Part shown: piece after piece, positions 47,375 through 53,314 of the stretch
How positions within the stretch are numbered: the first letter of the stretch is position 1
Layout of the letters: each line of letters begins with the position of its first letter
NCBI GenBank assembly: GCA_913061235.1
Contig: CAJXTB010000018.1
Location: 1-64,000 of the forward strand
Length of the DNA: 64,000 nucleotides
DNA from: an uncultured Pseudomonadota bacterium
GTDB lineage: Bacteria > Myxococcota_A > UBA796 > GCA-2862545
Direction of reading: 5' to 3'
Translations under genes and position numbers: made by a program
The notes under the pieces: generated by a model
The model's database searches: none
The model's input: the letters and a program-made list of their open reading frames with translations, nothing else
Told to the model about the DNA's origin: nothing

Positions 47375-49228
47375 TCAACTGCGCGACTCCAATGACTCCC
47401 ATCGATCAAACAGGCCTTCTAATGTGGCCTGCTTTTCTTTTTGGGTCAAACCAAGCTCTGCCGCCCGGTCTCCTCCGGCATGGTAGGTCGCCGGGTCCGC
47501 CAGCTCGGCGTCGACCGCGGCAATCTCTGCCTCCACAGCTGCTATGCGTTCGGGCAGAGCATCGAGCTCTTTGCGTTCTTTGTAGGAAAGCGTAGCCGGG
47601 GCGTCTTTCTGCACGATTTTCGGCGCAGTCTCGGGCGGGGCCGTCGCCCGCAACGCTTCCTGCTCCCGTTGGTAGGCTTCGAATTGCTGACGGTCCGCGA
47701 AGACCGTTGCGTCCCCGAAACCATCCAAGCCCAATACGCCGGTGCAGACGCGGTCCAAGAAGGCGCGGTCATGTGTCACGACAACTACCGTGCCATCGTA
47801 CTCCAACAATGCCTCTTCTAAGACCCGAAGAGTGAGCAGGTCCAGGTCATTGGTGGGCTCATCCAGCAGAAGCAGATTGGCGCCTTGCAGCATGAGCTTG
47901 GCCAAGAGCAAGCGCGCACGCTCGCCGCCCGACATCCCACTCACCTTCTGCTGATGCATCTCCCGGGGAAACAGGAAGCGTTCGAGAAAGGTGGCCACGT
48001 GAAGCGTGTTGTCGCCCATCACTACGCGGTCATTGCCCCCACCCACAGCATCGAACAGCGTGTCGTCTTCCTCAAGCCCGGTTCGCGCTTGGTCGAGAAC
48101 ACCAATCTTGATGCGCGAACCCCGCACTACTTCACCAGCATCTGCGGTCTCTAGGCCGCGAATAAGCCGAAGAAGAGTGGTCTTTCCGGCACCATTCGGC
48201 CCCACGATGCCCATACGGTCACCGGGACGAATGGTCATGTTCACGTTCTCGAACAGAGTCCGGTCGCCGTACGCTTTGCGAACGTCGTGCATTTCGATGG
48301 CTGTCGACCCACCGCGAGTGCGACTCTCAAGGGCGAAAAAGCTGAACTCACGCACGGCCGAGAGCTTGGGTTGTGCCTTCAACGCTTCAAGGCGCTTCAG
48401 ACGCCCTTTCTGTTTGGTCGAACGCGCAGCCGGTGACCGAGACGCCCACTCTGCTTCTCGTGCAAGCAGAGACAATGTGCGTGCCTCTGTGCCCTCCATG
48501 CGAGCACGCCGCTCAGCACGGGCGAGGAGATAGTCAGAGTACGAAGAGTCATCGTAGACCACACAGCGGCCGTCTTCGATTTCAACCATGCGATTTGCCA
48601 CGGACTCCAACAAGTACCGGTCATGTGTCACCATAACAACGGCACCGCGGTAGCCCGTCAGGAACGACTCCAGCCAGCTGACGGTGTCTGCGTCGAGATG
48701 GTTTGTGGGCTCATCCAGCAACAGAACCTTGCCGTCGGACAACAGCGCGATGGCGAGGGCCAGCCTGCGACGCTCACCGCCAGACAACCGTGTCAGTAGC
48801 GCACTGCGACTCGCAACACTCAGTCGTTCGCAGACTGCATCTACCTTGTGGTCAATGGTCCAGCCGACTTGGTCGAAGCGGTCCTGGATGGCGGCAGCCG
48901 CGTCATGGTCGCCGGCCTCAAGCTGAGCGCTATAGTCAGAGAGTAACTTGTCATGCCAGGCCGTAGCTTCGGTCAAGGCATCCGCAACAGTGTTGCCCAT
49001 CAGCTCTGGCTCTTGTGACAGATACGCAATCTGCCCAGCCGTGAAGACATCACCGTGGTCAGCTTCAACTTCGCCGCCCAAGATGGACAAAAAAGTCGAC
49101 TTCCCGCAGCCATTCGCGCCAATAAGTCCAATGCGGTCGCCGTCGTTGACGGTCAGGTCACAACCACGCAGGACCCAACGCCCACCCCAGGTACGTTCAA
49201 CGGCTTTGGCAATCAATAGGGCACTCAT
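47375..49228 (-). CDS. uup: ABC-F family ATPase, Uup-like
   Basis: A 617-residue protein with two ABC ATPase domains and no membrane part. The Walker A motifs are GANGCGKST and GPNGAGKTT, the signatures are LSGGERRRLALA and MSGGERARLLLA, and the Walker B stretches are LLLDEPTNHLD and LLLDEPTNDLD. The linker between domains is charged and helical. The C-terminal extension (from about 530) has a coiled coil (KERKELDALPERIAAVEAEI), which marks Uup rather than EttA. ABC-F proteins act on ribosomes; Uup also binds DNA in E. coli. The ATG overlaps the stop of ackA-pduL (ATGA). Confidence 0.93.
   Translation of the reverse strand: MSALLIAKAVERTWGGRWVLRGCDLTVNDGDRIGLIGANGCGKSTFLSILGGEVEADHGDVFTAGQIAYLSQEPELMGNTVADALTEATAWHDKLLSDYSAQLEAGDHDAAAAIQDRFDQVGWTIDHKVDAVCERLSVASRSALLTRLSGGERRRLALAIALLSDGKVLLLDEPTNHLDADTVSWLESFLTGYRGAVVMVTHDRYLLESVANRMVEIEDGRCVVYDDSSYSDYLLARAERRARMEGTEARTLSLLAREAEWASRSPAARSTKQKGRLKRLEALKAQPKLSAVREFSFFALESRTRGGSTAIEMHDVRKAYGDRTLFENVNMTIRPGDRMGIVGPNGAGKTTLLRLIRGLETADAGEVVRGSRIKIGVLDQARTGLEEDDTLFDAVGGGNDRVVMGDNTLHVATFLERFLFPREMHQQKVSGMSGGERARLLLAKLMLQGANLLLLDEPTNDLDLLTLRVLEEALLEYDGTVVVVTHDRAFLDRVCTGVLGLDGFGDATVFADRQQFEAYQREQEALRATAPPETAPKIVQKDAPATLSYKERKELDALPERIAAVEAEIAAVDAELADPATYHAGGDRAAELGLTQKEKQATLEGLFDRWESLESRS
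47411..47442 (+). terminator. Rho-independent terminator for the pilin gene, inside the uup coding end
   Basis: CAGGCC pairs with GGCCTG across a 9-base loop, followed by CTTTTCTTTTT on the plus strand. It lies 87 bases after the pilin stop and overlaps the last codons of the convergent uup gene, so the same bases encode Uup residues KEKQATLEGLF. Confidence 0.65.
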
Positions 49229-51036
49229 GAGGGGGACTCCGTAGGGTCAAAGCGGTCATCACGGCGGCGAATACTCGCCACCCTTCCAGTCGTAGACAGC
49301 ACACCATGAACGCCGCGGACCAGCTCAGCGGCGTTGCCTTCATCAGTGTCCACGTGCATTTCGAGGGCGTAGCTGTCTTTGACCCGTACGACAACGTCAC
49401 CAAACACCAGGTCACGCCCGTCTGTATCCAGCGCGACCTCAACAACATCTTTGTGCGAGACACCAAACCGTTCGGCATCCGCCGGAGTCATGTGGATGTG
49501 TCGCTGCGAACAGATGACACCGGACTCCAAGTCTACCGAACCTTCCGGGCCTTCCAAGGTCAGACCCGGCGTATTGTCGAGGTCGCCACTCATGCGTACA
49601 GGCGCGTCAACACCGAGCTTGAACTCGTCTGTTCGCGCGACCTCTACCTGGGTTCGACCGCGCGCCGGACCAATGACGCGAACCTTGTCGATTCGTCCGC
49701 GTGACCCGACAAGTGACACGCGCTCCTTGCAGGCAAACTGCCCTGGTTGGGTCAGCTCTACCTCCGGGGTCAGCGTAGAACCGACGCCAAATAGCGCTTC
49801 GACATGGGCTTGGCTCAAGTGAACATGACGAGCACTAATGGCCACTGGGATGGTCTCCCCTTCGGCCTGGTCAGCTCTGTTCATCACTCGCAACGCGGCC
49901 TGAGCAATCGCTTGTTCTTCATCCGTGTGCACGGCGAGCACCCGAACGCGACTGTTCATCCGGTGGAGGGAGACGACGGGCTCACCTGCGGAGGCTCGCG
50001 CGGTCCGGTTGGCCGTCTCATCGAGGCGTATGCCCATGAACTCCATGCGTTGAAGCGCCCGGTGGCGCATGGCTCCGCTGTTTTCACCAATACCACCGGT
50101 GAAAACCACGACGTCCACACCGCCCATCACCGCAGCAAAGCTGGCGATGTACTTGCGAAGTCGATGCGCTGCGACGGCAATGGCCAGTCCCGCCCGGTCA
50201 TCGCCGTTTTCCGCCGCCGCTTCAACGTCGCGCAGGTCTCCCCCAACCCCGGACAAGCCAGCAAGGCCGCTCTCCCGGTTGAGCAGAGTGTCCACACGGT
50301 CCACACCGTACTCACGGACCAGCTGCAGGACCAGGCCTGGGTCCATGTCCCCACTGCGTGTGCCCATCACCAGGCCTTCCAACGGGGTCAGCCCCATGCT
50401 GACATCAACACTACGCCCGTACTCAACGGCACAGGCACTCGCGCCATTTCCAAGGTGACAGCTGATGATGCGCAGGTCTCGAATGTCTTCTTCGAGGGAC
50501 TCTGCAGCACGCTTTGCGACGAACGAATGACTCGGTCCGTGGAACCCATAGCGCCGGAAGGCGTCCGACTCGGCCAGAGCGAACGGTAGCGCGTAGGTGC
50601 GCGCTCGGCGGGGAAGCGTCGCGTGAAAAGCGGTGTCAAACACCGCAACATGCGGCACATTTGGCAATGCGGCACGCGCAGCGCGAATTCCGGCGAGATT
50701 GGCGGGGTTGTGGAGAGGCGCCAAGCCGGACACGGCCTCAATGCCCTGTTCAACGTCGTCATCGATCGCTGTGGGCCTAGTAAATGCGGCTCCACCATGG
50801 ACAACCCGATGACCAACGGCCTGTACCGAGTCGGCAGCAAACAACGCCAACACCAACGTAAGAGCGCTTGAGTGGTCCGTCGCATCCACTTTGGTGGACT
50901 CCAGAGCGTCCACAGACAGCGTTGCACCGTCCCCAATGCGTTCCACCTGTGCGTGGCGAACCCGTTTACCGCTGACCGAGTGAATCAGTGCCGCCTTCAG
51001 CGAGCTGCTGCCGCAGTTGAGGACGAGAACGTGCAT
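49225..51036 (-). CDS. Acetate kinase-phosphotransacylase fusion (AckA-PduL)
   Basis: A 603-residue fusion. Residues 1 to about 395 are a complete acetate kinase: VLNCGSSSLKAAL, GHRVVHGG, VFDTAFHATLP, YGFHGPSH, CHLGNGASACAV, GTRSGDMDPGL, and the C-terminal VFTGGIGENS. Residues about 400-600 are a PduL-type phosphotransacylase with the paired metal-binding motifs ISARHVHLS and SQRHIHMTP, and MHVDTDEGNAAEL. Together the two halves would convert acetate, acetyl-phosphate and acetyl-CoA in one polypeptide. There is no microcompartment targeting peptide at the junction that I can see. ATG at 51036 has AAGGAGG upstream. It is coupled to uup and divergent from the HD hydrolase gene. Confidence 0.93.
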   Translation of the reverse strand: MHVLVLNCGSSSLKAALIHSVSGKRVRHAQVERIGDGATLSVDALESTKVDATDHSSALTLVLALFAADSVQAVGHRVVHGGAAFTRPTAIDDDVEQGIEAVSGLAPLHNPANLAGIRAARAALPNVPHVAVFDTAFHATLPRRARTYALPFALAESDAFRRYGFHGPSHSFVAKRAAESLEEDIRDLRIISCHLGNGASACAVEYGRSVDVSMGLTPLEGLVMGTRSGDMDPGLVLQLVREYGVDRVDTLLNRESGLAGLSGVGGDLRDVEAAAENGDDRAGLAIAVAAHRLRKYIASFAAVMGGVDVVVFTGGIGENSGAMRHRALQRMEFMGIRLDETANRTARASAGEPVVSLHRMNSRVRVLAVHTDEEQAIAQAALRVMNRADQAEGETIPVAISARHVHLSQAHVEALFGVGSTLTPEVELTQPGQFACKERVSLVGSRGRIDKVRVIGPARGRTQVEVARTDEFKLGVDAPVRMSGDLDNTPGLTLEGPEGSVDLESGVICSQRHIHMTPADAERFGVSHKDVVEVALDTDGRDLVFGDVVVRVKDSYALEMHVDTDEGNAAELVRGVHGVLSTTGRVASIRRRDDRFDPTESPS

Positions 51037-51085
51037 GAAGCCTCCTTGGCCGCGCCGTGTATCCGGTCCGCGATAGGAGACGCGC

Positions 51086-51724
51086 ATGACTGATCTTCAA
51101 CCTCTCTGGGACGCGGCGCATACGGCGCTCATCGGCGCCAAGCCCGCACACGACTTTCTGCATGTTCAGCGAGTCACAACGAACGCAAAACGCATCGCGA
51201 GAGCCGAAGGCGCAGACCTACATGTGGTCACGGCAGCAGCCATTCTCCATGAGCTGGTCAACCTACCAAAGGACCATCCCCGCTCATCCGAGTCGGGCGA
51301 CTTGTGTGCGCACGCTGCACGAGAGGTGCTCACCGGACTGGGCTGGCCAGCCCCCCGTGTAGATACAGTTTGCCTGTGCATTCGGGACCACTCGTGGTCA
51401 AAGGGTGCGGCCCCAACCACTCTAGAGGTCGCCGTTCTGCAAGATGCCGACCGCCTAGACGCCATTGGCGCCATTGGTGTGGCCCGGTGCATGGCCACGA
51501 GCGGTGAGCTGGGCCGACGACTGTACAACGACAACGACCCCTTCTGCGCGACACGAGCACCAAATGACCGCGACAACGCCTTGGACCATTTCTTTCGCAA
51601 GCTGCTGCACATCGAGGCTAAGCTGAACACCGCCGAAGGACGCCGAATGGCTAGCGAACGAACCACGTTCCTACACCAGTTCATTGACCAGCTACGAGAT
51701 GAGCTACAGCCGAATGAGGCATAG
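51086..51724 (+). CDS. HD-domain hydrolase (YedJ-like)
   Basis: A 212-residue metal-dependent phosphohydrolase-fold protein. The first His is in HDFLHVQRV. The central pair reads ILHELVNLPKDHPRSSES, with Glu where the usual HD Asp stands; the NLPKDHP stretch is typical of the YedJ group. The last Asp is in DADRLDAIGAIG. The family often acts on nucleotides, but the substrate is not known here. AGGAG precedes the ATG. Its 3' end overlaps the next gene by 11 bases, and it is divergent from ackA-pduL with 49 bases between. Confidence 0.85.
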   Translation: MTDLQPLWDAAHTALIGAKPAHDFLHVQRVTTNAKRIARAEGADLHVVTAAAILHELVNLPKDHPRSSESGDLCAHAAREVLTGLGWPAPRVDTVCLCIRDHSWSKGAAPTTLEVAVLQDADRLDAIGAIGVARCMATSGELGRRLYNDNDPFCATRAPNDRDNALDHFFRKLLHIEAKLNTAEGRRMASERTTFLHQFIDQLRDELQPNEA

Positions 51725-52214
51725 CTTCTCCGTCTTGCTGTGCCTTGGTCACGCTGCATGCGGCGCAGCCCCCGGCACAGCTGTACTCGATCCCTCTGCT
51801 TGGACCGAGGACTTGGCAGCGGACCCCCTGCCCGGCCACCGTCAGACCGATGCACCTTGCTTGGCACTCGGCGTGGAACAAGAGCTCGGCGGCATCGAGA
51901 TTGAGACCGGTGAGTGCCCGTATGCGGTGATGTCGCAGCCCGTATTGACTGACGTTCGTGCCGGTCGTGCCATCAGCGTGCTGGCATGGCACAACGACCT
52001 CATCGCCGCAGAACCAGGGACAGGCCATTTGCTCGTGACGGTCGGAGGACAGACGCTCCTTGATTGGACGCCAGACATCCCGTCGGATGCCAACGTGATC
52101 GACGAAACGATTGTCTTGGAGCAAGACCTCTCCGCCGGAGACATCGCTGTGCTGCACCTGCACAACCATGGTGCCAACACATGGAACCTCAACGCGGTCG
52201 AGGTCGCGGACTAG
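51714..52214 (+). CDS. Predicted lipoprotein, unknown
   Basis: A 166-residue protein starting MRHSFSVLLCLGHAACGAAP, a short lipoprotein signal with the lipobox cysteine near residue 16. The rest is beta-rich, with two conserved-looking cysteines (APCLALG, GECPYAV) and no recognised domain. ATG at 51714 lies within the end of the HD gene (11-base overlap); an alternative ATG at 51699 would lengthen the n-region. Location is probably the outer-membrane inner face. Confidence 0.65.
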   Translation: MRHSFSVLLCLGHAACGAAPGTAVLDPSAWTEDLAADPLPGHRQTDAPCLALGVEQELGGIEIETGECPYAVMSQPVLTDVRAGRAISVLAWHNDLIAAEPGTGHLLVTVGGQTLLDWTPDIPSDANVIDETIVLEQDLSAGDIAVLHLHNHGANTWNLNAVEVAD

Positions 52215-52270: not shown

Positions 52271-52302
52271 GAAACCCAGCTCTCAAAGGAGAGCTGGGTT
52301 TC
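52271..52302. terminator. 14-bp perfect hairpin, bidirectional terminator
   Basis: GAAACCCAGCTCTC and GAGAGCTGGGTTTC pair fully around AAAG. A-rich and T-rich ends make it usable for the lipoprotein gene on the plus strand and the tRNA-like gene on the minus strand. Confidence 0.85.
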
Positions 52303-52309
52303 AAAAAGG

Positions 52310-52386
52310 TGGTTGCGGAGACAGGATTCGAACCTGTGGGCTTAGGCGTGTGAGCCTGGCAAGCGACCATTTCGCTCAGCCCCGCG
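52310..52386 (-). tRNA. tRNA-like gene with abnormal anticodon arm (nominal anticodon CAC)
   Basis: A 77-base minus-strand element ends in an encoded CCA and has a perfect T-arm (ACAGG, TTCGAAT, CCTGT). A D-arm (GAGC/GCTT with GG in the loop) is present. The acceptor pairs CGCGGGG with CTCCGCA, leaving a C1-A72 mismatch like initiator tRNAs. The anticodon arm does not fold normally: the only good stem is AGGC/GCCT with a 6-base loop TCACAC, or AGG/CCT with 8 bases. U33 placement gives anticodon CAC (Val, GTG). It may be a decayed tRNA or an unusual functional one. Identity is uncertain. Confidence 0.6.
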
Positions 52387-52450
52387 GTGATGTAGAAACC
52401 TTAATCGATGAGACCACAGCGTCAACCTCTAGGTCGATAATGCGATCTTG

Positions 52451-53314
52451 TCAGTGCTTGTTCGGCTTGCGAGCCTTAGGCGAATTCTTGCGAACACGTG
52501 CGTTCGGCTTCGGCTTGGCCTTCGCAAACCCCTTTCCAGACTTCTTCTTGCCCGCGCGGCTAGGCTTGCGCCCTTCCGCCAGATCCTTCAAGCGCTTCAC
52601 TTCCGCATGGGTCAGCCGGCGAACTTGGCCGCGCTCCATTCCACGAATGGTCAACGTGGCGAAGGTCTCACGACGCAGCTTACTGACCGGGTGACCGAGC
52701 TGGGCAAACAGCCGACGGATCAGGCGGTTTCGGCCTTCCGTGACGGTGATCTCAACCCAGGCATTCGCCTTGTCGGTGGAGTCCAAGACCCGAACCTTTG
52801 CTGGCTTCGTGCGTCCATCGTCTAAGAAGACACCATCTTGGATGGCCTTGATGTCGCGCTGATCAGGGGTCCGGTAGACCTTGACCATGTAGCGCTTTGG
52901 GACTTCGCGGGATGGGTGTGTCAGGGCGTGAGCCATGTCGCCATCGTTCGTCAGAAGAAGCGCCCCTTCCGTGTCAAAGTCGAGACGGCCGACGCTCTCG
53001 ACGCGCTCGTTGACGTTGACTAAATCGAAGACGCTCTTGCGGCCTTGGGGGTCACTTCGGGTGACGATGACGCCGCGCGGCTTGTACATCAAGTAGTAGA
53101 CAACGTCCGGTCTAGGTGGAAGTGGCTTTCGGTCGACTGTAACGGTATCAAAGGCAGGATTAACCACCACTGCAGGCGAGTCCAGCACGGTGCCGTTCAC
53201 CGCAACACGGCCGTCTTTGATCCAGGCTTCCGCGTCTCTGCGGGATGTCATGCCCCGTTCGGCGATGAGCTTCGCAACGCGCACGCTGCGCGAGTTGTCG
53301 GGTTTGTCTGTCAC
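52451..53314 (-). CDS. rluB: 23S rRNA pseudouridine synthase, RluB family
   Basis: A 287-residue enzyme. An N-terminal S4 RNA-binding domain (VRVAKLIAERGMTSRRDAEA to VNGTVLDSPA) is followed by the RsuA/RluB/RluE catalytic domain with the Asp motif VGRLDFDTEGALLLTNDG, then KRYMVKV and EGRNRLIRRLFAQLGHPVSKL. The C-terminal tail of about 35 residues is very basic (KKKSGKGFAKAKPKPNARVR), suited to rRNA binding. The start is GTG. It begins 5 bases after scpB, a linkage common in bacteria. Confidence 0.93.
   Translation of the reverse strand: MTDKPDNSRSVRVAKLIAERGMTSRRDAEAWIKDGRVAVNGTVLDSPAVVVNPAFDTVTVDRKPLPPRPDVVYYLMYKPRGVIVTRSDPQGRKSVFDLVNVNERVESVGRLDFDTEGALLLTNDGDMAHALTHPSREVPKRYMVKVYRTPDQRDIKAIQDGVFLDDGRTKPAKVRVLDSTDKANAWVEITVTEGRNRLIRRLFAQLGHPVSKLRRETFATLTIRGMERGQVRRLTHAEVKRLKDLAEGRKPSRAGKKKSGKGFAKAKPKPNARVRKNSPKARKPNKH

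Follow-up and report, generated by a model that had tools for sequence, protein, structure and literature searches.

What is a gene that carries the ends of an initiator tRNA around a middle that cannot form a normal anticodon arm? Few RNAs are as conserved as initiator tRNAs. The original prediction offered two readings of the gene, a decaying initiator copy and a special tRNA reading GTG. The gene is 77 nt long and lies on the minus strand at 52310..52386 of the window, by which we mean the whole 64,000-nt stretch of DNA analyzed.

Fold and recognition of the gene

Read directly, the minus-strand sequence is CGCGGGGCTGAGCGAAATGGTCGCTTGCCAGGCTCACACGCCTAAGCCCACAGGTTCGAATCCTGTCTCCGCAACCA. In segments it reads CGCGGGG CT GAGC GAAATGGTC GCTT G CCAGG CTCACAC GCCTA AGCCC ACAGG TTCGAAT CCTGT CTCCGCA ACCA. 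The 5' strand of the acceptor stem (CGCGGGG, positions 1-7, 52380..52386) keeps the C1-A72 mismatch, and positions 2-7 pair with 66-71 at all six places. The 3' strand, CTCCGCA, is followed by A73 and an encoded CCA (together 52310..52320), and the T-arm (ACAGG-TTCGAAT-CCTGT, 52321..52337) is paired at five of five positions. The D-stem makes all four of its pairs, and G18G19 is retained. The encoded CCA, C1-A72, perfect T-arm and initiator-like length of 77 nt had all been noticed earlier, and each is borne out on the sequence. The anticodon stem in its normal register makes one pair out of five, and no arm with a 5-bp stem and a 7-nt loop is available. The only helix there is 29-32/39-42 (AGGC/GCCT) around TCACAC, that is, a hairpin AGGC-TCACAC-GCCT of 4 bp with a 6-nt loop at 52344..52357, and the same helix appears in the RNAfold drawing. 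Omitting the C32-G39 pair enlarges the loop to 8 nt, which agrees with the earlier remark that the arm folds only with a 6- or 8-base loop. The fold energy of the whole gene is modestly better than that of shuffled sequences (z = -1.85).

General tRNA finders do not accept the gene. ARAGORN calls no tRNA anywhere in the window, 52310-52386 included, so the check for a standard isotype call returned none, and the Rfam tRNA model gives 17.8 bits, under its cut-off of 29. Lacking both that recognition and a normal anticodon arm, it does not belong with the decoding tRNAs of any isotype. A covariance model made from 19 initiators, with the gene itself left out, matches exactly 52310-52386 at 46.9 bits (E = 9e-11) and nothing else in the window. 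The likeness to an initiator is not due to chance.

The nominal anticodon, CAC at 52350-52352, raised the suggestion of a special GTG-reading tRNA, perhaps charged with valine and possibly used for initiation. T33, A37 and A73 are present along with CAC when the gene is read in collinear register, as such a tRNA would have them, but CAC does not sit in a 7-nt loop, and the stem that should hold it has the one pair just described. Moreover, residues T8, A14, G15, A21, T36 and A38, invariant in 19 of 19 aligned initiators, are all changed here, and the three G-C pairs of initiators are lost as well. No GTG-reading tRNA of this sort was found in the relatives searched. It is also unneeded, since the genome has two CAT initiators on contig C3 (C3:327270 and C3:327525) and a normal tRNA-Val(CAC) (L016). 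We regard this reading as very improbable. The two initiators, which the original prediction had advised looking for, supply tRNA-fMet in place of the gene in the window.

These two working initiators (L070:271-347 and L070:526-602) are themselves unusual. In both, the third of the conserved G-C pairs is replaced by U31-G39, and both also carry U3-G70. The initiators of 47 other genomes of the order have GGG/CCC in every one among the matches listed and none has U31-G39, in a pattern search allowing up to three mismatches and centered on the deviant U31-G39 form, so that other shapes were possibly missed. Among its other tRNA genes, the genome has a tRNA-SeC gene on contig C24 (L073:575-675, minus strand), called by ARAGORN.

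The locus beside rluB

The gene lies downstream of, and on the same strand as, an rluB-type pseudouridine synthase gene (52451..53314, minus strand; PseudoU_synth_2 and S4 domains), in a neighborhood of rluB, ScpB, ScpA and HD-domain genes. The relatives named in the comparison are uncultured Deltaproteobacteria/Myxococcota. The rluB-type gene was found in all 20 of the other genomes of the same family, and in 17 of the 20 ARAGORN places a tRNA-Met(CAT) with the sequence of an initiator immediately 3' of it on the same strand. In an eighteenth (G016), a contig edge falls inside a tRNA that starts as an initiator for its first 33 nt (L093). In G018, no initiator was found downstream of rluB. 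Two of the genomes (G001 and G011) have tandem initiator copies at this spot, and the linkage of rluB and initiator recurs elsewhere in the order, in families f2, f3 and f5. Because 18 of 20 relatives carry an initiator, or its start, 3' of rluB, the position occupied by the gene is the ancestral initiator locus. The gene aligns to the family consensus without gaps, with 20 substitutions and no indels, and the central part is closer to this genome's own initiators than to any other of its tRNAs. The part of the original prediction that called it an initiator copy thus stands, as to origin, on both the rluB locus and the middle of the gene.

BLAST searches of 58 relatives and of 379 genomes of the phylum recovered ordinary initiators and other tRNAs and no second example of the altered form, and an exact 20-mer from the middle of the gene had zero matches in a viral-contig scan. 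The form is known from one genome, of a genus represented by one species alone. A match in G002 (L052; 87% over 31 nt) was set aside as chance rather than an orthologue; ARAGORN calls no tRNA there and the match could not be extended. In G049, G041, G038, G027 and G046, sequences that match the initiator consensus at 74-76% over the full length proved to be tRNA-Pro.

In several relatives, the 3' half of the rluB-linked initiator (positions 33-77) has been duplicated elsewhere in the genome: G053:C2:112702-112746, G014:C956:2831-2875, G038:C123:139-183 and others (L184, L185). In G053, some 47 kb separate the intact initiator gene from the copy downstream. These copies look like attachment-site remnants, and no integrase match was found among the few ORFs tested near them. 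Duplications of this kind (G053:C2:112702, G014:C956:2831) are what integrating elements leave, and they bring up the idea that the gene in the window is a chimera or attachment-site remnant whose middle was overwritten by a mobile element or by a different tRNA. However, the relatives' copies keep positions 33-77 intact, unlike the gene at 52310-52386. An attachment-site remnant was rejected, a second 3' half being found in neither the window nor the genome, and a chimera with another tRNA was rejected because, among the genome's tRNAs, its own initiators match the middle best. Both forms of the idea are improbable.

The gene is very probably this lineage's ancestral rluB-linked initiator tRNA gene, having lost its role in translation, and that it is a former initiator that no longer decodes is well supported. 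It should neither decode nor initiate, since the anticodon arm, the core residues at 8, 14, 15 and 21 and the three P-site G-C pairs are destroyed.

What was lost and what was kept

The differences from the family consensus are concentrated in positions 8-48 (52338..52379), the rewritten half, which holds 17 of the 20. That is 17 of 42 positions versus 3 of 35 elsewhere (Fisher p = 0.0016), for a partition picked after the differences had been seen. At the three changed positions outside this half, the bases (49A, 57G and 67T) also occur in functioning initiators from other families of the phylum. Thirteen changes are to states unseen among the aligned initiators, and all thirteen fall in 8-48 (hypergeometric p = 1.4e-4), a count that is biased, as the middle hardly varies among working initiators whereas the T stem does, which makes the Fisher value the more reliable of the two. 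When 17 random substitutions were simulated, the acceptor and T stems stayed whole in 1.9% of cases, and the acceptor, T and D stems together with the 4-bp central hairpin all survived in 0.3%.

Determinants of formylation (C1xA72, G2:C71, C3:G70 and A11:U24) and of the P site (the three G-C pairs) have been listed (PMC7949028). The first set is retained. The second belongs to what was lost: of pairs 29-41, 30-40 and 31-39, A29/C41 and G31/G39 are mismatched. Set against bacterial tRNA-fMet as a whole, the gene shares the position by rluB, the 77-nt length, the formylation determinants, the T-arm and the CCA, but it has neither a CAU anticodon held in a 7-nt loop by a 5-bp stem nor the three G-C pairs, and its core residues T8, A14, G15 and A21 have all changed.

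Two flanking elements were also compared with the relatives. A promoter-like sequence, TTGACG-N16-TAAGGT (52398..52425, minus strand), recognized by eye, ends 11 nt before the gene. Its layout matches by eye that of relatives such as L082 (TTGACG-N16-TAAGGG) and L084. A generic strict consensus scan did not report it, because TAAGGT has few consensus letters. On the 3' side is a terminator-like hairpin with a 14-bp perfect stem, GAAACCCAGCTCTC-CTTT-GAGAGCTGGGTTTC (52271..52302, minus strand), and relatives have GC-rich hairpins in the same place. The generic scan did not report this one because its T tract is weak. It is possible that this hairpin is retained because it serves the rluB transcript and not the tRNA, and for that reason it says little about the gene. 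Beyond the hairpin is a 176-aa ORF on the plus strand (51684-52214) with no Pfam match. Another ORF of the window, of 620 aa (49225-51087, minus strand), has acetate kinase and phosphate propanoyltransferase (PTAC/PduL-type) domains fused in a single frame.

Since the acceptor, T-arm, CCA, promoter-like sequence and hairpin are kept, the word "decaying" is only partly apt. Two accounts of the ancestral initiator can be weighed on this pattern, the stronger and the weaker form of the same explanation. In the weaker, the gene is a plain pseudogene: duplication relaxed the selection on it, and chance or a local bias in mutation produced the uneven pattern. Redundant initiator copies do exist, the altered form is unique to this genome, and ARAGORN and Rfam reject it as a tRNA, all as this account would have it. 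The absence of indels over 77 nt, the 3 of 35 changes versus 17 of 42, and stems that come through random substitution so seldom in the simulations speak against it; we would give it a nearly even chance. In the stronger form, the initiator role moved to C3 and the former gene was retained for a function requiring the acceptor and T half only; it might, for example, act as a small RNA, or bind or titrate a protein that recognizes tRNA ends (RNase P, EF-Tu, formyltransferase). The same skewed distribution, in which the acceptor, T-arm, D-stem, G18G19, CCA and formylation determinants are kept and the anticodon and P-site determinants lost, argues for co-option, as do the retained promoter-like sequence and the lack of indels. 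Against it, the argument draws on a single sequence, with altered copies in 0 of 58 relatives and 0 of 379 genomes of the phylum, no partner gene was identified, and the 8-48 partition is post hoc. We consider it a serious possibility falling somewhat short of even. The odds between a slowly dying relic and a gene that selection still maintains in a non-decoding role are close to even.

We infer that the gene is still transcribed and that its product is processed into a tRNA-like RNA with a CCA end, given that RNase P and other end-recognizing proteins bind the acceptor/T half. A fuller version has the former initiator as a transcribed, CCA-ended, non-decoding RNA with its acceptor/T half, which faces the formylase and RNase P, under selection and its anticodon half remodeled, acting as a regulator or decoy of initiation or of tRNA-end proteins. 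In all its parts together this is rather unlikely, and we put it forward tentatively. In the species of this putative decoy, both working initiators also lack the full set of three conserved G-C pairs.

Relation to pseudo-tRNAs and Y RNAs

A second set of tRNA-like units in this genome was considered as a related oddity. On contig C7 (L181:7356-8256, minus strand), four tandem units of 125-129 nt have an insert of about 55-65 nt replacing the normal anticodon arm, and three of the four score 45-54 bits with the Rfam tRNA model. The array adjoins a TROVE/Ro60 gene (L181:4960-6645). A tRNA-like domain is known in YrlA RNA (PMC7790460), and adjacency to TROVE/Ro60 is expected for Y RNAs that mimic tRNA, so the C7 units are most likely a YrlA-type Y RNA array, and a relation to the gene at 52310-52386 was rejected. 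Like YrlA-type Y RNAs, the gene in the window has a tRNA-like domain without decoding; unlike them, it has no extra Y stem in its 77 nt and no Ro60/Rsr gene adjacent, and it descends from an initiator.

The closest known kind would be the pseudo-tRNAs, such as tRNA-Other of Bacillus cereus, which is nonfunctional in translation and whose deletion alters the cell wall and drug resistance (PMC3399842). Both are tRNA genes apparently unusable in translation that keep tRNA-like ends, but for tRNA-Other expression, a Trp anticodon and a deletion phenotype are on record, whereas the gene here is known from its sequence alone. It has been argued that relic tRNAs can be recruited to other roles (PMC3399842), and the former initiator is plausibly, on analogy alone, a further case of a pseudo-tRNA, from a different source tRNA.

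It is seldom that an initiator is found lost or re-used at its ancestral locus while nearly all relatives still have the normal form as a yardstick. The U31-G39 pair in both working initiators of this species bears on how strict the rule of three G-C pairs is in nature. If the RNA is still made from the old locus, it would be a test case for the recruitment of a former initiator outside translation.
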